DNA of 64,000 nucleotides from Bacteriovoracia bacterium (GTDB lineage: Bacteria > Bdellovibrionota > Bacteriovoracia > Bacteriovoracales > Bacteriovoracaceae): the NCBI GenBank assembly GCA_030431635.1, contig JAUIIL010000008.1:62001-126000 (forward strand), given 5' to 3'. A program made the position numbers and the translations under genes. The notes under the pieces are model-generated. The model ran no database searches. It worked only from the letters and a program-made list of their open reading frames with translations, and had not been told where the DNA came from. How positions within the stretch are numbered: position 1 is the first letter of the stretch; every line of letters begins with the position of its first letter. Positions 4,033-14,798 of the stretch are shown here, piece after piece.

Positions 4033-5925
4033 ATGAAACTAAAAATAGCGATTACATTTACTTGTTTTTGTACCCTTTTCCTACTTGTTATTGCAAAGGC
4101 ATTTTATGTTCAGATCGTTAATCGAGATAATCTCATAGCTTATTCAGAATCTCAGTTTATTAGAAAGGTAAAAAAATATCCGAAACGTGGACATATTTTA
4201 GATAGAAATGGGAATCCCTTGGCCATTAATATCAAAACATATGGAATTTTTGCGATTCCCAAAAATATTAATGATTTAAAATCTACTTTAAGAAGACTTA
4301 ATAAAATTATTTCAAGTATTGATGTTGAGAAGTTGTATAAAACAATTAAAAAAAGAGACAAATATACCTGGGTAAAAAGAAAGATTAAACTAACAAACAA
4401 ACAAGTTGAAGAGATAAAAGAAATCGATGGAATTTATATGGAAGAACAATCTAGTCGATTTTACCCAAATAACGAACTAGCATCACAGTTAATAGGTTTT
4501 GTTGGGATCGACAATATTGGTTTGTCTGGTGTTGAGTATAGTTTTAATAAACAGTTAAAAGGTGAAGCTCAAATTATTAAATATTATAAAGATGCAAAGG
4601 GACGACCCATAAAGTTTGAATCAAAGGAAGTAGAGGAAGACTCGAAAGACTTAGTGTTATCAATAGATAAAGACATTCAGGCTGCGTTAGAGAAGTATCT
4701 TAAAGAAGGTGTTGAATCCTCTCAAGCTAAAATGGGAGGGGCTGCGATTATGGATACTCAGACAGGTGAAATTTGGGCGATGGCCAATTATCCTAGTTAT
4801 GACTTAAATAATATAAAAAAATCAAAAGTAAGTAATAGAAAACTCTCATACGTTACGGATCCATTTGAGCCTGGTTCAGTTTTTAAAATTACAACGATAG
4901 CCTCTGCTTTAGAAAATAAAATCGTTAATCCTGAGACAAATTATTACTGCGAAAAAGGCCAATTACTTGTTAATAATCACATCATAAGTGAAGCAGAAGG
5001 TGGAAAAGGATTTGATTGGCTTTCTGTTTCAGATATTTTGGCCAAAAGCTCGAATGTTGGAACAACCAAAATAGCTTTTGATTTAACTTTTTCAAAATTT
5101 AAAGAAACTCTGGATAAATTTCCTGTTGGAAAAAAAACTGGAATTGAGCTACCTGGTGAATCCAGAGGGATTTTTCACTTTAATGATACGGTGACGCCAT
5201 TAACTTTGAGTAATATAAGTTTTGGGCAAGGAATTGCAACGACAGGAGTTCAAATTCTTGCGACATATGCAGTAATTGCCAATAATGGAACTTACGTAAA
5301 ACCGACACTACTAAAAGTAAAAGAAAAACCTATTGGGCATAAAATTTTAAAAAAATCAGTGGCCAAAGATCTTCAGAAGATGCTTGTTAAAGCGGTTTAT
5401 AAAGGAACAGGACATAGAGCCCATGTTCCTCATTATCTGATCGCTGGAAAAACAAGCACGGCTCAAAGAGTTTCTGAAACAGGTGGGTATGATGGTTATA
5501 TTCCAGGTTTTGTTGGTTTTCCAATAGGGATCAAGAAAAGGTTTGTTGTTTTTGTTTATGTTGATGATCCTCATGGGAAATATTATGGAAATGAAGTAGC
5601 AGCGCCGATATTTAAAAAAATAACAGAATATGTTCTCTATAAGAATAAAGAGTTTGATCATATGGCCAAAAATAAAAATGAAACGTATAAAAATGTTATT
5701 GATGATGTAAAGGTTTCTCATTCTTCTGTTAGAAAAATGATGAAAGGCTCTCCCAATTTTTTAGGTCTTGATAAGGTTAGTGCAAGAAACTTAGCTTATA
5801 AACTGAATCTTGATGTTGAGTTTGAAGGCTACGGAATAGTGAGAAAGCAGGAGCCACTTCCTGGAGTTGATTTAAAGCAGGGAGAAAAAATAAAACTTTA
5901 TTTTCAAGCACCTGTTTATGAATAG
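4033..5925 (+). CDS. ftsI: Septal peptidoglycan transpeptidase FtsI (PBP3) with C-terminal PASTA domain
   Basis: A class B penicillin-binding protein that cross-links septal peptidoglycan with FtsW. It has an N-terminal membrane anchor (residues 6-25), a pedestal domain beginning at KRGHILDRNG, and a transpeptidase domain with SVFK (Ser282, Lys285), SSN (339-341) and KTS in place of KTG (473-475). A single PASTA-like repeat occupies the last 60 or so residues (SARNLAYKLNLDVEF...QEPLPG), giving 630 residues. A C-terminal PASTA domain is seen in Spo/FtsI proteins of several phyla, though not in E. coli FtsI. The gene overlaps murE by 8 bp. Confidence 0.95.
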   Translation: MKLKIAITFTCFCTLFLLVIAKAFYVQIVNRDNLIAYSESQFIRKVKKYPKRGHILDRNGNPLAINIKTYGIFAIPKNINDLKSTLRRLNKIISSIDVEKLYKTIKKRDKYTWVKRKIKLTNKQVEEIKEIDGIYMEEQSSRFYPNNELASQLIGFVGIDNIGLSGVEYSFNKQLKGEAQIIKYYKDAKGRPIKFESKEVEEDSKDLVLSIDKDIQAALEKYLKEGVESSQAKMGGAAIMDTQTGEIWAMANYPSYDLNNIKKSKVSNRKLSYVTDPFEPGSVFKITTIASALENKIVNPETNYYCEKGQLLVNNHIISEAEGGKGFDWLSVSDILAKSSNVGTTKIAFDLTFSKFKETLDKFPVGKKTGIELPGESRGIFHFNDTVTPLTLSNISFGQGIATTGVQILATYAVIANNGTYVKPTLLKVKEKPIGHKILKKSVAKDLQKMLVKAVYKGTGHRAHVPHYLIAGKTSTAQRVSETGGYDGYIPGFVGFPIGIKKRFVVFVYVDDPHGKYYGNEVAAPIFKKITEYVLYKNKEFDHMAKNKNETYKNVIDDVKVSHSSVRKMMKGSPNFLGLDKVSARNLAYKLNLDVEFEGYGIVRKQEPLPGVDLKQGEKIKLYFQAPVYE

Positions 5926-7297
5926 TAATGAAATTTTAAAAAAACTCTCTTCATTTATTCTCACTCATAATCTAGAAAAAAATCTTGAGCTTAAAGACAC
6001 ACAATGGAAAACAGAAGAGTCAACCACTGAAAGTATTTTATTTTATTCTATCTCTGATACTCTTTTGGCCAAAGATGCCTTTTATCAGAGAATGAAGAAC
6101 ACAGATTATGGAGTTTTAATAACAGATAGAATCAACGCTACTGTGGAAAAGCAAAAAAATTATATCGTCGTTCAGAAAGAGAGTTGGCTTGAGTGTCAAA
6201 AAATTATTTGTGATTTATTTTATCCATATTCACTAGAAACAAAATTAATAGGCATAACAGGAACAAATGGGAAAACAACAACTGCCGATTTGGTTCTTCA
6301 ACTAGGAACTCAGAATCATTTAAATGTTCTTACCGTGGGAACTCTTGGTCTTAGAGATAAAAATGGAGTTATTGTTGATTTAGGTTTAACAACACCTCCT
6401 TATATTGAAATAAGAAAAATTATTCATCAATATGAAAAAAAATATAACACTATTGTTTTCGAAGTCAGTAGTCATGCTTTAGAGCAAGGAAGAGTTTATG
6501 AAATAAATTTTCACGCAGCAGCTTGGACAAATTTAACTCAAGATCACCTGGATTATCACCAAACATTTGAAAATTATTTCAAAGCAAAGGAAAAAATACT
6601 AAATCATCTCCATGTTGGAAGTCATTTACTTATTCCGGAGCAGTCAAAAAACTTGTTAACAAAATTAAAAAAAGAAAAAATTATAATAATTAAAAAAATA
6701 AACTTTCAAGAAAAAATACCTCCCTTTTTGGAAAGCTCTTTTAATCAAGTGAATTATTCTCTTGCTTGTGCATTGTTGTGTGAAATAACGAAGTTAAATA
6801 AAAAAGATCCTATGTTAATAAAGCCAACTCCTGGTAGGTTTCATTTGATTGATTGGAATGAGAGAAAAATAATTATTGATTTTGCTCATACTCCTGATGC
6901 TCTTTTGAATATTGGCCAGGCCATAAAAGAAGCTTATCCAAAAAGAAGAGTTGTTACGGTTTTTGGATGTGGTGGAAACAGAGATAAAAAAAAGCGACCT
7001 TTAATGGGGGAAGCAGTAAGTAGTTTTTCTGATCTGATCTATTTAACCAATGATAATCCTAGAGATGAAGAACCGTTAGATATTATAAATGATATTTTGC
7101 CAGCAATATCGAAAGAGCATTATATTGAAGTAGAAAGAAAAAAAGCTATAAAAAAAGCAATGGAAAACTCAACAAAAAGAGACGTTATTTTAATTGCAGG
7201 GAAAGGACATGAGGATTACATGATAATTAAGGGAAAAAAAATTAGTTATTCAGATGAAGCATCAGTCCAAGACGTCATGAGGTATTGTCGTGATTAA
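5918..7297 (+). CDS. murE: UDP-MurNAc-L-Ala-D-Glu:meso-DAP ligase MurE
   Basis: A Mur ligase that adds the third residue of the peptidoglycan stem peptide. The ATP P-loop GTNGKT is at residues 115-120. The middle domain has FEVSSHALEQGR and TNLTQDHLDYH, followed by FENYFKAKEKIL, which contains the Lys that is carbamoylated in the family. The C-terminal domain has FGCGGNRDKKKRPLMG and the DNPR motif that selects meso-diaminopimelate over lysine. All expected catalytic residues are therefore present. At 459 residues it is slightly short at the N-terminus. It overlaps ftsI and murF by 8 bp each, so translation is probably coupled. Confidence 0.97.
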   Translation: MNSNEILKKLSSFILTHNLEKNLELKDTQWKTEESTTESILFYSISDTLLAKDAFYQRMKNTDYGVLITDRINATVEKQKNYIVVQKESWLECQKIICDLFYPYSLETKLIGITGTNGKTTTADLVLQLGTQNHLNVLTVGTLGLRDKNGVIVDLGLTTPPYIEIRKIIHQYEKKYNTIVFEVSSHALEQGRVYEINFHAAAWTNLTQDHLDYHQTFENYFKAKEKILNHLHVGSHLLIPEQSKNLLTKLKKEKIIIIKKINFQEKIPPFLESSFNQVNYSLACALLCEITKLNKKDPMLIKPTPGRFHLIDWNERKIIIDFAHTPDALLNIGQAIKEAYPKRRVVTVFGCGGNRDKKKRPLMGEAVSSFSDLIYLTNDNPRDEEPLDIINDILPAISKEHYIEVERKKAIKKAMENSTKRDVILIAGKGHEDYMIIKGKKISYSDEASVQDVMRYCRD

Positions 7298-8684
7298 GAG
7301 TGAGTTGATTAAAAAAGTTAATAGTGTTGTTGATATTGTAGGTGAACTTCCAAAAAACTGGATTCATTTCTCAACAGATTCAAGGTCCTTTTATGATGGA
7401 ATATTTGTGGCCATTACAGGTGAAAAGTTTAATGCAGTTAATTTTCTGGAAGAGGTTCTAAAGAAAAACTGCAAGGTGATTGTTTATTCATCAACTGCAG
7501 AGAATAGGCAAAGAGTTCACTCTTTTGCCCAAGAGTATCAAGATGTTACTTGGGTATGTGTGGAAGATAGTATCGTTTTTTTACAAGAGCTTGCTGGGTT
7601 ACAAGCTGAAGAGTTTAAAAAAAATGGTGGAAAGATAATTGGAATAACTGGATCAAATGGAAAAACCACAAATAAGGAGATGATATATCATATTCTTGAT
7701 AAGGTTTTCCCAAATAAAGTATATAAAACAAAACATAATAACAACAACCATATTGGTGTTCCTTTAACCATTTTAGAAATTAATCCCCAAATAGAGCTTC
7801 TTATTTTGGAACTTGGGAGTAATCATCCTGGTGAAATGAAGGTTGTTTGTGATATTGCCAAACCTCAAATTGGAATAACAACTAATATTGGTCAAACTCA
7901 TCTTGAGTTTTTTGAAAACGAAGAAGCCGTTTTTCATGAAGAGAGCTATCTGTATCAAGTGGTGAAAGAAAATTCTAATTCTATATTTTTTATTAATAAT
8001 GATGATAGCTATCTTGCTCAGCTAGAAAAAACACCATGTACTAGAACTTATGGTGTTGAGAAATTTTCAGATTTTGTTTTTTATTTCCATGGAAATGAAA
8101 TTGAAATTAAAACAAAGAATAAGCAATTTTTGATTAAAAATGAAAGTATTACTGGAGAGCATAACCGGCATAACTTGGCCGCGAGTTTTTCTCTTTGTTA
8201 TGATCTTTTTCCTCAACATGAAGATAAGTTGATTCAAGCGGCATCGTCATTTAAACCAACGGCCAATCGCTCTCAATGGCTGAAGATGGATGAGAGCCTT
8301 ATTTTTCTAGATGCTTATAACGCTAATCCTTCTTCCATGAAACTATCTTTGAAAGGTTTTTTTGACGAATGTAGAAAACAACAAATTTTAGCGCGTGAGA
8401 TATTAATAATAATGGGCGATATGAATGAGCTTGGTAAGAAATCAATTGAGTATCATGAGGAGCTAGGTTCTTATCTCAATGGGTTCGAATTAGGCCAAGC
8501 CCTCTTTATCGGGAAATACTCTTTGAGTTATAAAAAAAATTTTGCTGGGAAAGGAAAAACTTATCCCAGCCGTTCTGATTTAACTAAAGAAGAGATCAGG
8601 GGGTATTTGTCACAATTTAGAGCTGTGTTTATTAAAGGAAGTCGTTCTTTACAACTTGAGTCATTACTAGATATAACTAAATAA
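7290..8684 (+). CDS. murF: UDP-MurNAc-tripeptide:D-Ala-D-Ala ligase MurF
   Basis: Adds D-Ala-D-Ala to finish the UDP-MurNAc-pentapeptide. The start is a GTG that overlaps the murE stop. Motifs include GSNGKTTNKE (121-130), ELGSNHPGEM, TNIGQTHLEFF, LDAYNANPSSM and IIMGDMNELG. The position that is normally the carbamoylated lysine (AKGE or TKSE in homologues) aligns here with Glu218 in HEESYLYQ. That is unusual and is reported as a finding. The rest of the active site is conventional, so I expect activity. Length is 464 residues. Confidence 0.95.
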   Translation: MIKSELIKKVNSVVDIVGELPKNWIHFSTDSRSFYDGIFVAITGEKFNAVNFLEEVLKKNCKVIVYSSTAENRQRVHSFAQEYQDVTWVCVEDSIVFLQELAGLQAEEFKKNGGKIIGITGSNGKTTNKEMIYHILDKVFPNKVYKTKHNNNNHIGVPLTILEINPQIELLILELGSNHPGEMKVVCDIAKPQIGITTNIGQTHLEFFENEEAVFHEESYLYQVVKENSNSIFFINNDDSYLAQLEKTPCTRTYGVEKFSDFVFYFHGNEIEIKTKNKQFLIKNESITGEHNRHNLAASFSLCYDLFPQHEDKLIQAASSFKPTANRSQWLKMDESLIFLDAYNANPSSMKLSLKGFFDECRKQQILAREILIIMGDMNELGKKSIEYHEELGSYLNGFELGQALFIGKYSLSYKKNFAGKGKTYPSRSDLTKEEIRGYLSQFRAVFIKGSRSLQLESLLDITK

Positions 8685-8699: not shown

Positions 8700-9776
8700 A
8701 TGTTTTATCATTTATTGTATCCCTTAAGTGAGAGCTTTAATGTACTGAATGTTTTTCGCTACATTACAGTTCGCTCTTTCCTTGCATTTATTATTGCTTC
8801 AGTTGTCTCCATTGTATGGGGACGTTTCTTTATTAGATACATGAAGAAAAAACAATTTGGTCAAACCATAAGAGATGACGGTCCTCAATCCCACTTAAAA
8901 AAGAGAGGAACTCCAACAATGGGGGGAGTTTTCATCATAGGGACAGTTTTTTTGACCTGTTTAATAGCAGGAAATTTTAATTCTTGGGTTTTTCTTGGGA
9001 CTTTAGGAATATTTCTTTCGTACTTTCTGCTGGGATGGTTAGACGATTATTTAAAAATTTTAAAAAAAAATACAGATGGTGTTGCTGGTAAAATGAAGCT
9101 TTTATGGCAATTTGCCACTTCTTTGGCCGTTACTTATTTTCTCTTTAGTCGTGGAATTATTGACGGTCAGCTTTTTATTCCCTTTATGAAAGAGCCTCTT
9201 GTAGATTTGGGAGTGGGGTACATTTTTTTCGCTTCAATTGTCATTGTGGGTTCAAGTAACGCAGTGAACCTAACAGATGGCCTAGATGGTTTGGCCATTG
9301 GCCCAATTATTACAAGTGCAGCAACACTGGGTTTACTTTCTTATGTTGCTGGGCACTATGAAATTTCTAATTATCTCTATATTCCCTATGTCGATTCAGC
9401 TGGAGAGCTGGTTGTTCTTTCTGCGGCAATTGTTGGAGCCGGAGTTGGTTTTTTGTGGTATAACTCTTACCCTGCACAGGTTTTTATGGGAGACTGCGGT
9501 TCCTTATCTCTAGGTGGTGCTTTGGGGATGATGGCCGTCTTTACCAAAAATGAACTGCTTTTTGTTGTCATTGGTGGGATTTTTGTTATAGAAGCTTTAT
9601 CAGTGATTATACAGGTGGTTTCTTACAAGACTCGAAAGAAAAGGGTGTTTAAAATGGCACCAATTCATCATCATTTCGAGTTGCTTGGATGGTCAGAACC
9701 AAAGGTTATTGTGCGTTTTTGGTTAGTGAGTATCATCCTAGCGATACTTTCGATAGCAACATTAAAGTTAAGATAA
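8700..9776 (+). CDS. mraY: Phospho-MurNAc-pentapeptide translocase MraY
   Basis: An integral membrane enzyme that transfers phospho-MurNAc-pentapeptide from UDP to undecaprenyl phosphate, giving lipid I on the inner face of the cytoplasmic membrane. The 358-residue length is typical and about ten membrane segments are visible. Catalytic and family motifs are GTPTMGG, the Asp pair in GWLDDYLK, NLTDGLDGLA, QVFMGDCGSLSLGG and the His cluster APIHHHFELLGW. It lies between murF and murD, as in most dcw clusters, with AAGG upstream of the ATG. Confidence 0.97.
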   Translation: MFYHLLYPLSESFNVLNVFRYITVRSFLAFIIASVVSIVWGRFFIRYMKKKQFGQTIRDDGPQSHLKKRGTPTMGGVFIIGTVFLTCLIAGNFNSWVFLGTLGIFLSYFLLGWLDDYLKILKKNTDGVAGKMKLLWQFATSLAVTYFLFSRGIIDGQLFIPFMKEPLVDLGVGYIFFASIVIVGSSNAVNLTDGLDGLAIGPIITSAATLGLLSYVAGHYEISNYLYIPYVDSAGELVVLSAAIVGAGVGFLWYNSYPAQVFMGDCGSLSLGGALGMMAVFTKNELLFVVIGGIFVIEALSVIIQVVSYKTRKKRVFKMAPIHHHFELLGWSEPKVIVRFWLVSIILAILSIATLKLR

Positions 9777-9785
9777 GAGGTTTAT

Positions 9786-11174
9786 ATGTCGTCATTAGAA
9801 AAATATAAAGGGAAGAAAGTTTTAATAGTAGGACTTGGTAAAACAGGTTTTTCTCTTATTCATTTTTTCAATGATCTTGGCAGTCAAATTAAAGTTACTG
9901 ATATAAAGCCTATTTTTGATTTAAATAAACAAGTAAAAAGGCTGAAGAAAATTCAACCAAATCCTTTGATGACTTTTGGAGAGCATAGAAACGAAGACTT
10001 TATTGATGCTGATTTAATTGTTTATAGCTCTTCGGTCGATCCCAACCTTCCTCAATTACAATTAGCAAGACAACATGGTAGGGAAGTTTTTAGTGAGTTT
10101 GCTTTTGCTTATAACCACTGCAATAAGCCTGTTATTGCCGTTTGTGGTTCTATGGGAAGATCATCAGTGGCCCATATGATTGGATACACTCTTAAAGTTG
10201 CGAAGAAAAATGTTTTCGTTGGTGGAACAAGTGAGCAACCTTTTATTAATTTTTTAGCAATGCCAGATAGAGATGATGTTGATTATGTTATTGTAGAAGT
10301 TTCTCCGTTTCAGTTACAAACGTTAGAGAACTTCCATCCTATAATGGCCATTTATCCAAATCTTGATGAGCGTTTTACTCCAGGTCGATTTAAATCAGCC
10401 GGTGAGTACTTTGAAACAGCTTTAAGTGTTATTAAAAACTTAACGAGCAATGATTATTTAATTGTTAACTTTGATAAACTTTCTGGAAACTCAATCTTAA
10501 GGGGTTGTGATGCTCAGACTTTTTGGTATTCAAGAAAATCATTTGTTAGCATCGGTGTGATTAATGAAATCCAAGGGACTCATTTCCACGATAAAAGAAT
10601 TCATTCAAACATTCACTACTATTCAGAGTTTAGAGTGAATAAAATGAGAATAGTTGGAGTTAACAATAGAGAGAACTTATTAGCGGCCATCACAGCTTGT
10701 AAAGCACTGAAGGTGCCTGATGAGGCTATCCAAAACTGTATTCAAAAATTTCCAGGAATACCAAACAGATTAGAGTTTGTGACTGAAAAAAATGGTGTGA
10801 AGTTCTATAATGATGCAAAGTCAGAAACAATGGATGACGTGAAAAAGACTCTTGAGGCCTTCAAATCAGATGTTATTTTAATTTCGGGTGGAAAAGATTC
10901 AGAGCAAGAGTATGAGAAATATAACGGAATAATCAACGAAAAAGTTCGTTTGATGGTTCTTGTTGGAGAATCTAAGGAAAATATGAACCGGGCCATTGGC
11001 GACTCAACTCAGACATTTCTTGTGGGATCTTTTGATGAGTCAATTTTACTGGCTTATCAAAAATCAAGAACTGGCGATACTATCGTTTTGTGCCCAGGAA
11101 ATGAAGCCACTGATATTTTCAGAGATTTTGAAGAAAAAGGTAATTACTTCAAAAAACTTATCTTTCAACTCTAG
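9786..11174 (+). CDS. murD: MurD-family protein with degenerate active site
   Basis: Position (mraY-murD-ftsW), 462-residue length and three-domain layout identify this as the MurD homologue. It has an N-terminal Rossmann motif GLGKTG, a middle domain with VIVEVSPFQLQTL, and a C-terminal domain with GIPNRLEFV, YNDAKSET and a GGKD loop. Many catalytic positions are changed. The P-loop reads GSMGRSS (121-127) with Arg125 for the ATP-binding Lys. The Mg-binding Asn of GGN is Thr148. The metal His of EDHMD is Phe197. The carbamoylated Lys is Ala212. The His of LPHR is Asn327. Glu171 and Lys345 remain. MurE, MurF and MurC next door keep their P-loops. Either it is inactive or structural, with a second enzyme elsewhere, or it works with an altered mechanism. 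The frame is open and undisturbed. Confidence 0.85.
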   Translation: MSSLEKYKGKKVLIVGLGKTGFSLIHFFNDLGSQIKVTDIKPIFDLNKQVKRLKKIQPNPLMTFGEHRNEDFIDADLIVYSSSVDPNLPQLQLARQHGREVFSEFAFAYNHCNKPVIAVCGSMGRSSVAHMIGYTLKVAKKNVFVGGTSEQPFINFLAMPDRDDVDYVIVEVSPFQLQTLENFHPIMAIYPNLDERFTPGRFKSAGEYFETALSVIKNLTSNDYLIVNFDKLSGNSILRGCDAQTFWYSRKSFVSIGVINEIQGTHFHDKRIHSNIHYYSEFRVNKMRIVGVNNRENLLAAITACKALKVPDEAIQNCIQKFPGIPNRLEFVTEKNGVKFYNDAKSETMDDVKKTLEAFKSDVILISGGKDSEQEYEKYNGIINEKVRLMVLVGESKENMNRAIGDSTQTFLVGSFDESILLAYQKSRTGDTIVLCPGNEATDIFRDFEEKGNYFKKLIFQL

Positions 11175-11219: not shown

Positions 11220-12389
11220 ATGGAAGCTTATTCAAATAACAGGGTACAGTACTATTTTGTTGGTCACCTAGCGCTCCTTCTTATTATCGGAGTTATCATG
11301 GTGTACTCTTCAAGTTATATCTATGCTAAAGAGACATTTGGTTCTTCGACTCACTTTTTTTTAAAACAATTAATCTTTGTTGTGATTTCTTTGTTTTTTG
11401 CTCTTGTTGTTGGGAAAACGAAGCCTACTTTTTGGTATAAGTACGCTTACTCAATTAACTATTTTTTTACTTTTCTCGTCCTTTTAACTCTTGCTGATTT
11501 TTCAGGAGAGTCTGTGAACGGCTCTTCACGATGGTTGGGAACATCAAGTATTCGTTTTCAGCCAGGGGAATTCGTCAAGGTTAGTTTGCTGATGGCTTCA
11601 GTGAAATATTTTTATGATTTTTCATCCATGGATAATAGAGTGAGGTTGAGAAACCTAGCTTGTTTATTATCACCATTAGTTATTTTAATCTTACAACCTG
11701 ATTTTGGAACATTCTCCATCTGTATGGCCATTATAGCGTTTGCCTGTTTTTTAAGCGAGTTTCCAAGAAAGTACTTTTATTCATTACTGGCCCTAAGTTT
11801 GGGGGGAGGATGGTTAATTTTAATTTCTGAATCCTACAGAGTGAAACGCTTGCTAAGTTTTATGGACCCATGGAGTGATCCTCAAAGAAGTGGATTTCAG
11901 ATAATTCAATCTTACCTGGGGTTTGCTAACGGACATTTTTTTGGGCAAGGTTTAGGAAACTCTCATGAAAAGCTTTTCTATCTTCCAGAAGCTTACAACG
12001 ACTTTATTTTTAGTGTTATTGGTGAAGAATTAGGTTTTGTGGGAGTGTTATCTATCGTTCTTCTGTTTGTTTCTTTTGTGTATATGGGACTTAAAATGGC
12101 AATGCAATTGTCTCAAAAACTCAATCAAACAGTTATTATAACGATAGTGTTTGTTATTGGTCTGCAGGCTTTTTTGAACATGGGAGTTGTTCTTGGCCTT
12201 CTTCCAACCAAAGGGCTTAATCTTCCCTTTATAAGTTATGGAGGATCTTCCATGCTTGCAAATTTTTGGTTGATTGGTCTCGTTTTTGCTTTTCTAAATC
12301 CTTCAGATGAAAAACCAGATTTTTCTTCAAAAAGAACATCTTCTCAATCTCATAAATATTCCTCATCAAGTTTTCAATCAGAAATATGA
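11220..12389 (+). CDS. ftsW: SEDS-family septal peptidoglycan glycosyltransferase FtsW
   Basis: Polymerises lipid II glycan strands at the septum in a complex with FtsI. About ten membrane segments fill the 389 residues. Family motifs are YSSSYIYA near the N-terminus, RFQPGEFVK, PEAYNDFIFSVIGEELGF (with the catalytic Asp region) and LPFISYGGSSM. A Ser-rich cytoplasmic tail of about 30 residues follows. No ribosome-binding site precedes the ATG, which is unusual among its neighbours; a -10-like box ends 6 bases upstream. The end overlaps murG by 4 bp (ATGA). Confidence 0.95.
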   Translation: MEAYSNNRVQYYFVGHLALLLIIGVIMVYSSSYIYAKETFGSSTHFFLKQLIFVVISLFFALVVGKTKPTFWYKYAYSINYFFTFLVLLTLADFSGESVNGSSRWLGTSSIRFQPGEFVKVSLLMASVKYFYDFSSMDNRVRLRNLACLLSPLVILILQPDFGTFSICMAIIAFACFLSEFPRKYFYSLLALSLGGGWLILISESYRVKRLLSFMDPWSDPQRSGFQIIQSYLGFANGHFFGQGLGNSHEKLFYLPEAYNDFIFSVIGEELGFVGVLSIVLLFVSFVYMGLKMAMQLSQKLNQTVIITIVFVIGLQAFLNMGVVLGLLPTKGLNLPFISYGGSSMLANFWLIGLVFAFLNPSDEKPDFSSKRTSSQSHKYSSSSFQSEI

Positions 12390-13444
12390 AAAAAAACTAC
12401 GGTATTATCGCTGCAGGTGGAACCGGTGGTCATATTAATGGAGCGATTTCTCTTGGAGATTACCTAGAGCAAAAAGGAAATGAAGTTCTTTACTTAACGG
12501 GAGAAAGAGAGCTTGATTTTAAACTATTTAATGGAAAGAGGGCTGTTCACCTAAAAACAAGCGCACTAAGATACAAAAATCCTTTTAAAGTTTTCAAAAG
12601 TTTAACTTTAAATTTATGGAGCTTTTTTTCATTGATGATAAAGTTTATTCAAAAAAGGCCTCTGTTTGTTATTGGTTGTGGTGGCTATGTTTGTGGCCCA
12701 AGTTTAGCGGCAGCTTATATTTTAAGGATACCGACTTACATTGTTGAACAAAATGCTGTCATGGGAATGACAAATAAAATTTTGGGGCATATTTCAAAAA
12801 AAATTTTTCTTCATTTTCAAAAAACGAAAGGATTAAGCCCATCAATGGAGAGGAAGGTTGTTGTTTCAGGAAACCCAACAAGAAGTCAGATTAAACAAAG
12901 TCCCAGGCAAAAAAGTGAGGAAATTAATATTTTAGTTTTTGGAGGGAGTCTAGGGGCTACTCAAATTAATAGAATCATAAAAATAGTTTTTGAGAAAGAT
13001 TGGTCTTTAAAAATTAGAATTACTCATCAAATAGGTCTAAAAAATGAACTCAGCGTTCGTCCTGGAGAAAATGTGAGTTATCATCAAGTTAAGTATATTG
13101 ATGATATGCAAACGCAGTACGATAAGGCTGATCTCATTATTTGCCGAGCTGGAGCTTCTTCTATATCAGAGCTGCGAATTGTTCAAAAACCAGTAATTCT
13201 CATTCCCTATCCAGCAGCTACAGATAATCACCAATTTTATAACGCAATTGAGTTGAAAAATGAGGCAGATTTTTTTGTTGGTCTTCTTGAACAAAAAGAT
13301 AGTGATGAGATAAATGCTCAGAAAGTTGAAGATATTATTAACGATCTTGCCAATATAGAAAATAAAGGTTCAAATGCCCCTGTTTTAATCCAAAATAGTG
13401 CAGAAGTAATTATTAATGAAGTTCTCAGGGATATTACAAAATAA
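12386..13444 (+). CDS. murG: Lipid II synthase MurG (GlcNAc transferase)
   Basis: A peripheral GT28-family glycosyltransferase that converts lipid I to lipid II on the cytoplasmic face. The N-terminal lipid-I motif is AAGGTGGHINGA, in which the usual Pro after GGTGGHxx is Gly. The middle has FVIGCGGYVCGP and YIVEQNAVMG, and the UDP-GlcNAc site has VFGGSLGATQIN and RAGASSISEL followed by LIPYPAATDNHQFYNA. Length is 352 residues. It overlaps ftsW by 4 bp and murC by about 29 bp. Confidence 0.96.
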   Translation: MKKNYGIIAAGGTGGHINGAISLGDYLEQKGNEVLYLTGERELDFKLFNGKRAVHLKTSALRYKNPFKVFKSLTLNLWSFFSLMIKFIQKRPLFVIGCGGYVCGPSLAAAYILRIPTYIVEQNAVMGMTNKILGHISKKIFLHFQKTKGLSPSMERKVVVSGNPTRSQIKQSPRQKSEEINILVFGGSLGATQINRIIKIVFEKDWSLKIRITHQIGLKNELSVRPGENVSYHQVKYIDDMQTQYDKADLIICRAGASSISELRIVQKPVILIPYPAATDNHQFYNAIELKNEADFFVGLLEQKDSDEINAQKVEDIINDLANIENKGSNAPVLIQNSAEVIINEVLRDITK

Positions 13445-14798
13445 ATTTAAATTTCACTTCATAGGTATTGGAGGAATAGGAATGAGTGCACTTGCTAAAG
13501 TTCTTGTGCAATCAGGTTTTCTCGTGACTGGAAGTGATAGAAAAAAATCCTCTTTAACTGAGGATTTAGAAAAACTTGGAATCACAATTCAAGAAGGAGA
13601 TTTTTCTTCTGACATTGAAGAGAGTGATGTTGTTATTATTTCATCAGCGATAAGTGTCAAGCACCCTGAATATGACTGGGCCCTGGAAAAGAAAAAAATA
13701 ATTTTAAAAAGATCTCAACTATTAAAAGAAATCGAACAACAATATCAATCAATCTCTGTCGTTGGGAGCCATGGAAAAACAACAACAAGTTCTCTGCTCT
13801 CTTGGATAATGAATCAAGGAGAAGAAAAGACTTCTTTTATAGTGGGAGGAATTGTCAAAGGACTTGAGACACAATCCTTTATTTGTAATAGTAAATACTT
13901 AGTATTTGAAGCGGATGAATCAGATGGAAGTTTTACTCTTTATCATCCAAGCGTTCTTGTTTTAACAAACTTAGATAATGATCATATGGATTTTTATCGA
14001 AACTTAGATGGATTGATAGAGTCATTTCAAAAGTACTTAGATGGCCTTGCCTCTGAGACAACCATCATTTATAACAAAAGTGATAAAAACTTAAATCGGT
14101 TAAATTTTTCTAAATTCTTCAATGTTTTAACATTTGGTTTAGAGAAAACAAATGATTTGCATTTAGTAGACTACTCAAATAGTTCTCAAGTAATGAACAT
14201 AAAAATGGGGTTTAATAAAGAAGAACTAGAGTTATCTACTTTTCTTTATGGGAAATATAATATTGAAAACATAATGGCGGCTTTCCTCGTTTGCCATTAT
14301 TTAAAATTACCAGTTGATTTAATTAAAGAAGGGATAAAAAGTTTTATAGGAGCAGGCAGAAGGATTGAAAAACTTTACCAAGATAAAAATGTAACAATTA
14401 TAGATGACTACGCCCACCATCCAACAGAAATAAAAGCAACACTAAAAGGCATTCGAGAGAGTTTTGAGGGTAAATATATAAAGGTTTATTTTCAACCTCA
14501 TCGTTATACAAGGACAAAAGAATGTTGGCAGGATTATTTAAATAGCTTCTATGATTGTGATGAAATACACCTGTTAGAAATATATAGCGCAGGAGAAAAT
14601 GAAATTGAAGGCATAAATTCAACAAAATTAAGCCAAGAAATAAATCAACGAGAGAAAAAGGAAAAAGCTTTTTTTTGTAAGGATATTAGTTCCCATGTTA
14701 TTTTTGAAAGTGAAAGAGGCTTAGTTTTAGTTTTTATGGGAGCTGGTTCTATAAGCGCTCAAATTAGAGGCATTGTTAGTGAACAAAGAAACTCTTAA
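13416..14798 (+). CDS. murC: UDP-MurNAc:L-alanine ligase MurC
   Basis: Catalyses the first amino-acid addition to UDP-MurNAc. The N-terminal motif FHFIGIGGIGMSALAKVL is characteristic. The P-loop is VGSHGKTTT, the middle domain has FEADESDGSF and TNLDNDHMDFY, and the C-terminal domain has GAGRRIEKL, IDDYAHHPTEIKATL and FQPHRYTR. Length is 460 residues. The ATG at 13416 lies 29 bp inside murG. No later Met precedes the conserved start motif, so I keep this start. All catalytic motifs are intact, in contrast with the neighbouring murD. Confidence 0.96.
   Translation: MKFSGILQNKFKFHFIGIGGIGMSALAKVLVQSGFLVTGSDRKKSSLTEDLEKLGITIQEGDFSSDIEESDVVIISSAISVKHPEYDWALEKKKIILKRSQLLKEIEQQYQSISVVGSHGKTTTSSLLSWIMNQGEEKTSFIVGGIVKGLETQSFICNSKYLVFEADESDGSFTLYHPSVLVLTNLDNDHMDFYRNLDGLIESFQKYLDGLASETTIIYNKSDKNLNRLNFSKFFNVLTFGLEKTNDLHLVDYSNSSQVMNIKMGFNKEELELSTFLYGKYNIENIMAAFLVCHYLKLPVDLIKEGIKSFIGAGRRIEKLYQDKNVTIIDDYAHHPTEIKATLKGIRESFEGKYIKVYFQPHRYTRTKECWQDYLNSFYDCDEIHLLEIYSAGENEIEGINSTKLSQEINQREKKEKAFFCKDISSHVIFESERGLVLVFMGAGSISAQIRGIVSEQRNS

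Follow-up and report, generated by a model that had tools for sequence, protein, structure and literature searches.

The D-Glu ligase MurD is an antibiotic target, and its conservation is assumed to be due to its chemistry. In the Escherichia coli enzyme (eco) we take E157 to be a Mg ligand, H183 a Mg/UMA ligand and K198 the carbamoyl-Lys; T321, K348 and S415 are presumably the D-Glu ligands, D35 and R37 the UDP-binding residues, and N268, N271, R302, D317 and K319 the nucleotide contacts. The sequence of this protein was taken from NC_000913.3 and served as the reference for residue positions. In plants a functionally divergent MurE homologue, PAP11, is reported to belong to the plastid RNA polymerase as one of its peripheral subunits (PMC12681378), and in the MurD2/MurL pathway of Xanthomonas an active second MurD, MurD2, works with an epimerase (PMC8788868). 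MurG and MreB have been reported as scaffolds recruiting MurC, MurD, MurE and MurF, with MraY in the assembly (PMC4929429, PMC6420597). No description of a bacterial MurD pseudoenzyme, or of a duplicate MurD in the predatory bacteria considered here, was found in the literature consulted, which lay mostly outside subscription papers.

The window, i.e., the whole stretch of 64,000 nucleotides analyzed here, comes from a Bacteriovoracia bacterium and carries a dcw cluster in the order ftsI-murE-murF-mraY-[murD]-ftsW-murG-murC-murB-ftsQ-ftsA-ftsZ, in which the following genes are relevant:

5918..7297, + strand: murE, P-loop normal (GTNGKTT)
7290..8684, + strand: murF, P-loop normal (GSNGKTT)
8700..9776, + strand: mraY, upstream neighbour of the dcw murD
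9786..11174, + strand: dcw murD, putative pseudoenzyme ("A"), open reading frame of 462 amino acids with an ATG start
11220..12389, + strand: ftsW, downstream neighbour of the dcw murD
13416..14798, + strand: murC, P-loop normal (GSHGKTT)

Among the 30 clusters with all seven core genes, the 14-gene order was identical in 22, the remaining eight being mostly cut by contig ends. The MurD of the window matched the murD model TIGR01087 over its whole length (residues 11-459) with 266.4 bits against a curated cut-off of 211.95, and the three Pfam Mur ligase domains were matched as well. The best structural matches of its AlphaFold model (mean pLDDT 93.3) were all MurD, with a Z of 38.9 to 7sy9_A over 422 residues; by whole-length match and by fold the protein is a MurD. 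From the catalytic set formed by the P-loop Lys, N138, H183, K198 and K319, it keeps K319 only. We consider it probable, with some reserve, that the dcw MurD of this family is a pseudoenzyme, that catalysis has moved to a paralogue and that the operon copy has been retained as a structural or regulatory part of the precursor/division complex. The residue losses, the second intact MurD, the conservation, the retention in the operon and the recurrence in other lineages, on which this reading is built, are all read from sequence.

A first-pass annotation of the window had pointed to five replaced catalytic positions and two retained ones in this MurD, next to normal P-loops in MurE, MurF and MurC of the same operon. 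The P-loops are as it described them, and alignment to the E. coli enzyme placed each of the seven residues where it had put them, the second retained one, Lys345, falling on eco K319. Family counts were obtained from a set of 113 dcw MurDs of the Bacteriovorax/Halobacteriovorax family, some of them from 33 members:

10146..10166, + strand: altered P-loop GSMGRSS, residues 121-127, with Arg125 for eco K115; Arg in 113/113 family members
10221..10229, + strand: GGT, residues 146-148, with Thr148 for eco N138; Thr in 109/113, Ser in 3, Asn in 1
10296..10298, + strand: Glu171, aligned to eco E157 and kept; 112/113
10374..10376, + strand: Phe197 for eco H183; variable site, His outside the six commonest residues in 113 sequences
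10419..10421, + strand: Ala212 for eco K198; Lys in 62, Ala in 29, Ser in 12, Cys in 9 and Gln in 1 of 113
10764..10766, + strand: Asn327 for eco H301; His in 96 and Asn in 17 of 113
10824..10826, + strand: Glu347 for eco T321; Glu in 31/33 family members, Thr in 33/33 second copies
10899..10901, + strand: Ser372 for eco K348; Lys not one of the top five residues at this site in the dcw copies of the family

The losses extend beyond those listed at first, since the D-Glu ligands T321, K348 and S415 are replaced by Glu347, Ser372 and Ala441, respectively. One early claim had to be corrected: the S-P-[AG] loop, described as absent, is altered instead and reads C436-P437-G438; in an alignment of 49 sequences P437 did not vary and G438 hardly did. 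The K319 equivalent is kept in 112/113 family members, the eco K115 position is Lys in E. coli and in 13 intact dcw MurDs of the single-copy type, and the H183 position is occupied by Tyr, Asn, Phe and others in the family.

The dcw MurDs of 32 other family genomes share 60-78% identity with that of the window, and a scan of named genomes (80 loci) placed Halobacteriovorax marinus and Bacteriovorax sp. BSW11_IV and DB6_IX among the family. An alignment of relatives, proposed earlier as a check on the substitutions, upheld some of them as family traits beyond chance, namely the invariant Arg125, Thr148 and the loss of H183, whereas K198A and H301N turned out to be branch-specific and not family-wide. 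Ala212 and Asn327 are combined in one of the 113 proteins, the window's own; judging from the alignment, both losses are specific to branches including the window, and being local they are not usable as a family signature. Around the metal, D-Glu and gamma-phosphate sites the dcw copies vary freely (eco 113, 160-164, 182-186, 198 and 348).

A second D-Glu ligase elsewhere had been envisaged from the start, together with a search of the whole genome for it. The genome of the window (19 contigs, estimated 100% complete) was searched with the Mur ligase middle domain and gave seven loci: MurE, MurF, MurC and MurD of the operon, a Mpl-like locus (L005), a FolC-like locus (L007) and a second MurD (L004:1183-2454, contig C15), by which the anticipated ligase is found at the sequence level. 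This second MurD reached 310 bits to TIGR01087, above the dcw copy, and its catalytic set is complete (GTNGKTT, GGN, ELSS, H183, K198, HR, NDSK-T321 and S415), with Arg at K348. A second MurD was present in 70 of the 73 family genomes at least 90% complete. It was not found in G021, G032 and G069, near-complete drafts of 220-310 contigs in which the altered dcw MurD is present, and it was a fragment at a contig end in G087; these three genomes may have gaps in the assembly or may truly be without it, which would challenge our explanation.

Contamination is an unlikely origin for the second MurD, because it lies on a 246 kb contig with neighbours conserved in 20/20 genera, and a recent duplication of the dcw gene was rejected as its source, the second copies forming a separate clade in the tree. 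In the 20 genera examined a methyltransferase-like gene (F0) is the divergently transcribed neighbour of the second murD, and a Xaa-Pro aminopeptidase-like gene (F2) is usually near; both were named from sequence only, and this neighbourhood gave no clue to function. The second copies keep the catalytic centre and are mostly without the UDP-binding residues (Asn35 in 23/33, Gly37 in 23/33); the small antiparallel sheet of the central domain is missing from them.

The dcw murD was found in 73/73 family genomes at least 90% complete (129 family genomes scanned), and no full-length copy has an internal stop. Twenty-two clusters were complete with respect to nine core genes. Among the proteins compared in them, MurD had the highest mean pairwise identity (80.2%), in loci that had been found with MurD patterns, which may favor MurD slightly; it was followed by MraY (77.1), FtsA (74.8), FtsZ (71.5), MraW (67.7), FtsW (66.9), FtsI (63.5), MurC (59.9), FtsQ (57.1), MurB (57.0), MurG (55.9), MurF (53.0) and MurE (49.7). 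A genome search independent of MurD patterns agrees on the presence and integrity of the dcw copy. Median Nei-Gojobori dN/dS in 57 close pairs, rough values since dS is near saturation, was 0.061 for MurD, 0.095 for MurC, 0.185 for FtsZ, 0.28 for MurF and 0.29 for MurE. Within the same genomes the mean pairwise identity was 36% for the second MurD vs. 67.5% for the dcw copy, and in the tree the dcw copies sit on short branches beyond a long stem (0.84-0.96 changes per site), the second copies having long tips. Such a shape is what one would expect if rapid change had come first and a new, strict constraint afterwards. Two features expected of a repurposed Mur ligase of the PAP11 kind are in place, catalysis available from another protein (L004) and purifying selection acting despite the loss of residues.

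Three regions of the dcw copy are conserved in a way that may reveal what it still does:

9900..9938, + strand: UDP-binding turn and next helix, residues 39-51, DIKPIFDLNKQVK; Asp39 (eco D35) in 33/33, Lys41 (eco R37) in 30/33
10524..10631, + strand: family-specific motif WYSRKSF..GV..E.QGTHFH..RIHSNI..HSEF, residues 247-282, in the small antiparallel sheet of the central domain
10965..11078, + strand: dcw-specific C-terminal patch, residues 394-431 (K397, N401, R402, G414, Q425, S427, R428)

In the N-domain the UDP-binding residues are kept in family dcw copies, G14 in 33/33 and T16 in 32/33 besides D35 and the Lys at R37, and P42, F44, N47, K48 and K51 reach at least 97% in the 113 proteins and are variable in intact relatives. 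The nucleotide contacts N268, N271, R302, D317 and K319 are kept as well. Within the family motif, for which strands 264-268, 271-274 and 280-283 are modelled, the 20-residue block 261-280 has a mean top-residue frequency of 0.89 vs. 0.37 in intact relatives. Across the families sampled, the C-terminal patch is near-invariant in dcw MurDs, degenerate and intact alike, and missing from the second copies and E. coli. Nine dcw-conserved positions (I364, K397, N401, R402, G414, Q425, S427, R428 and G264) are shared by neither type of second copy; E. coli agrees at G264 only, and eight of the nine lie within residues 364-428. The patch is the best candidate at hand for a surface serving the role kept by the dcw copy, and part of its conservation may be plain ancestry shared by the dcw clade.

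We infer loss of activity, ligand binding, docking and the identity of the partner as follows. D-Glu ligation would be carried out by the second MurD, the dcw copy no longer ligating. The latter would be held under unusually strong purifying selection as part of the cytoplasmic peptidoglycan-precursor/division assembly of its own operon. It probably still binds the UDP-MurNAc precursor and/or nucleotide, since its N-domain keeps the residues that bind UDP and its central and C-terminal domains keep the nucleotide contacts, and it may do so without turnover. Docking to a partner would involve the C-terminal patch (394-431) and the family-specific surface of the central domain (247-282). As Mur ligases are scaffolded by MurG and MreB, with MraY in the assembly, a plausible place exists for a non-catalytic MurD. 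A structural or regulatory part in the division complex, one of the options put forward in the first-pass annotation, is supported by the very strong conservation together with the lost Mg, D-Glu and gamma-phosphate residues.

Altered dcw MurDs recur in the phylum. In family f7 (4/4) E157 is lost (Val/Ala) together with K198 and K319, K115 being kept; in f17/f24 (3/3) H183 and K198 are lost, with N138D and K319R. In f6, 26 of 27 dcw MurDs carry Ala or Ser at N138; the K348 position holds Thr, Val or Ala, the rest being almost intact, and one f6 genome (L292) kept N138 despite having a second MurD; as only N138 and K348 are changed, the f6 dcw copy may still work. f6 is a large family with many closed genomes of 3-4 Mb and two MurDs (L238-L296, f6 and relatives), in which pairwise identity is 80.7% for the dcw copy vs. 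59.6% for the intact second copy. The second MurD of f6, f7, f17 and f24 has the full catalytic set and is of another type ("E-type") than the second MurD of the Bacteriovorax family. In twelve genomes, from families f3, f4, f5, f10, f11, f12 and f13, only one MurD passed the cut-off (406-458 bits), and its catalytic core is intact. The dcw MurD was thus altered in 5/5 two-MurD families vs. 0/7 single-MurD families (Fisher p 0.0013, kinship ignored), families being non-independent data points and f6 the mildest case, which could be dropped.

In the tree the Bacteriovorax copy is near f17/f24, with the intact f12 beside them, and f7 is near f6 and the intact f11, so that intact lineages separate the Bacteriovorax family and f17/f24 from f6/f7. 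This placement of degenerate lineages among intact ones makes at least three separate degeneration events likely, a degeneration shared by the Bacteriovorax family and f17/f24 being possible (tree support 94/58). We tentatively propose, as a real possibility, that MurD of the Bdellovibrionota has an ancient second role in the dcw cluster or in division, independent of catalysis and exerted via the C-terminal surface, and that three or more lineages split the two jobs into two genes, a second MurD taking on the chemistry and the operon copy turning into a dedicated non-enzymatic factor for division or precursor supply.

The site of the dcw copy might have been remodelled for another use, with Arg125, Thr148, Glu171, Glu347, Lys370 and Glu373 carrying out a different reaction or sensing a nucleotide or UDP-sugar ligand. 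Replacing the P-loop Lys by Arg can leave some activity in an enzyme. The invariance of Arg125, with E157, K319, R302, D317 and N271 kept, could equally mean a new reaction, and replacements as constant as Arg125 (113/113), Glu347 (31/33) and Glu373 (108/113) are not expected of a site merely abandoned; the nucleotide contacts N271, R302, D317 and K319 and a new histidine-rich motif (H266, H268), invariant in the family, point the same way. However, the metal-ligand and D-Glu region (eco 160-164, 182-186, 198 and 348) varies freely, and the other degenerate lineages lost different residues, which argues against a common new active site. We regard such an enzyme or sensor as unlikely, and changed chemistry, which the first-pass annotation had left as an option, as less likely than a structural or regulatory role.

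The dcw copy could also form a heteromer with the second MurD, activating or positioning it, the pair being the working MurD. The two proteins co-occur almost strictly and are complementary in what they retain, Asp35 (33/33) and Lys37 (30/33) in the dcw copy and the catalytic centre in the second, which is without the small antiparallel sheet. Their rates in the same genomes are nevertheless very different (67.5 vs. 36% identity), unlike those of an obligate pair, the two genes are not co-located, and the second copies of the other families belong to a separate lineage (E-type). An allosteric pair of this kind seems improbable to us.

It is very doubtful that the operon copy still ligates D-Glu, Arg standing in for the Lys of its P-loop, and that the second MurD serves as a backup or acts on another substrate. 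In favor of this, the score of the dcw protein exceeds the curated cut-off for murD (266 vs. 212 bits), and K198 and H301 are kept in most relatives. Nonetheless N138, H183, T321 and K348 were lost together in the family, and K198 also in the window, while the second copy keeps N138, H183, T321 and K198 and has only K348 changed (Arg); moreover, K198 mutants of E. coli MurD reportedly have considerably reduced activity (PMC4816537). A pseudogene in decay since the second murD replaced it would account for the loss of universal catalytic residues and is refuted, as the first-pass annotation had expected, by full-length open copies without internal stop in 73 good genomes, a dN/dS of ~0.06 and a place among the most conserved proteins of the cluster.

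Glutamate racemase MurI (TIGR00067, PF01177) was not found in the genome of the window and is present in most of the family. MurI loss with a Xanthomonas-type MurD2/MurL route was rejected as the general cause of the change in the dcw MurD, because most relatives with the same altered MurD have MurI. The genome of the window encodes a class IV aminotransferase (L186:1399-2310:-) related to BCAT/D-amino-acid transaminase, and D-Glu may come from this enzyme or be scavenged from prey. It also encodes the Mpl-like murein peptide ligase (L005:1120-2556; 269 bits to TIGR01081, below the cut-off), consistent with recycling of murein peptides of the prey or its own.

If the operon MurD is indeed a pseudoenzyme with a structural or regulatory function, the chemistry of MurD has seemingly been separated from another job of the protein, as the apparently dead copy evolves more slowly than FtsZ and the catalytic copy fast. 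The non-enzymatic job suggested here could then be studied on its own, and an old question would become testable, that of the structural roles of Mur ligases in the precursor machine and of why the ligases stay in the dcw cluster. Throughout this family of predatory bacteria, annotating the dcw gene as the D-Glu ligase is probably a mistake, and the same doubt should be considered in f7, f17, f24 and perhaps f6.

With respect to known systems, the dcw copy has in common with the canonical MurD of E. coli the three-domain fold, the operon position, a score above the curated cut-off and the superposition on solved MurD, and differs from it in the replaced P-loop Lys, GGN Asn, Mg-binding His and D-Glu ligands and in the presence of a second intact MurD. 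The second copies resemble Xanthomonas MurD2 in being a diverged additional MurD with K348 changed to Arg; yet MurI is present in most of the genomes here, and the position matching MurD2 Glu197 is mostly Ser, Asn or Thr. The MurD2 signature Glu197/Arg358 (eco 182 and 348) reads Ser/Arg in the second copy of the window's genome and Arg/Ser in the dcw protein of the window. MurG/MreB scaffolding provides a setting of physically assembled Mur ligases where a non-catalytic MurD could act, whereas the scaffolds described there are MurG and MreB themselves and the ligases are active. PAP11 is the precedent for a Mur ligase turned into a structural component of another complex; it concerns a eukaryotic organelle, another ligase and a transcription complex, whereas here it would be a bacterial MurD inside its own dcw operon.
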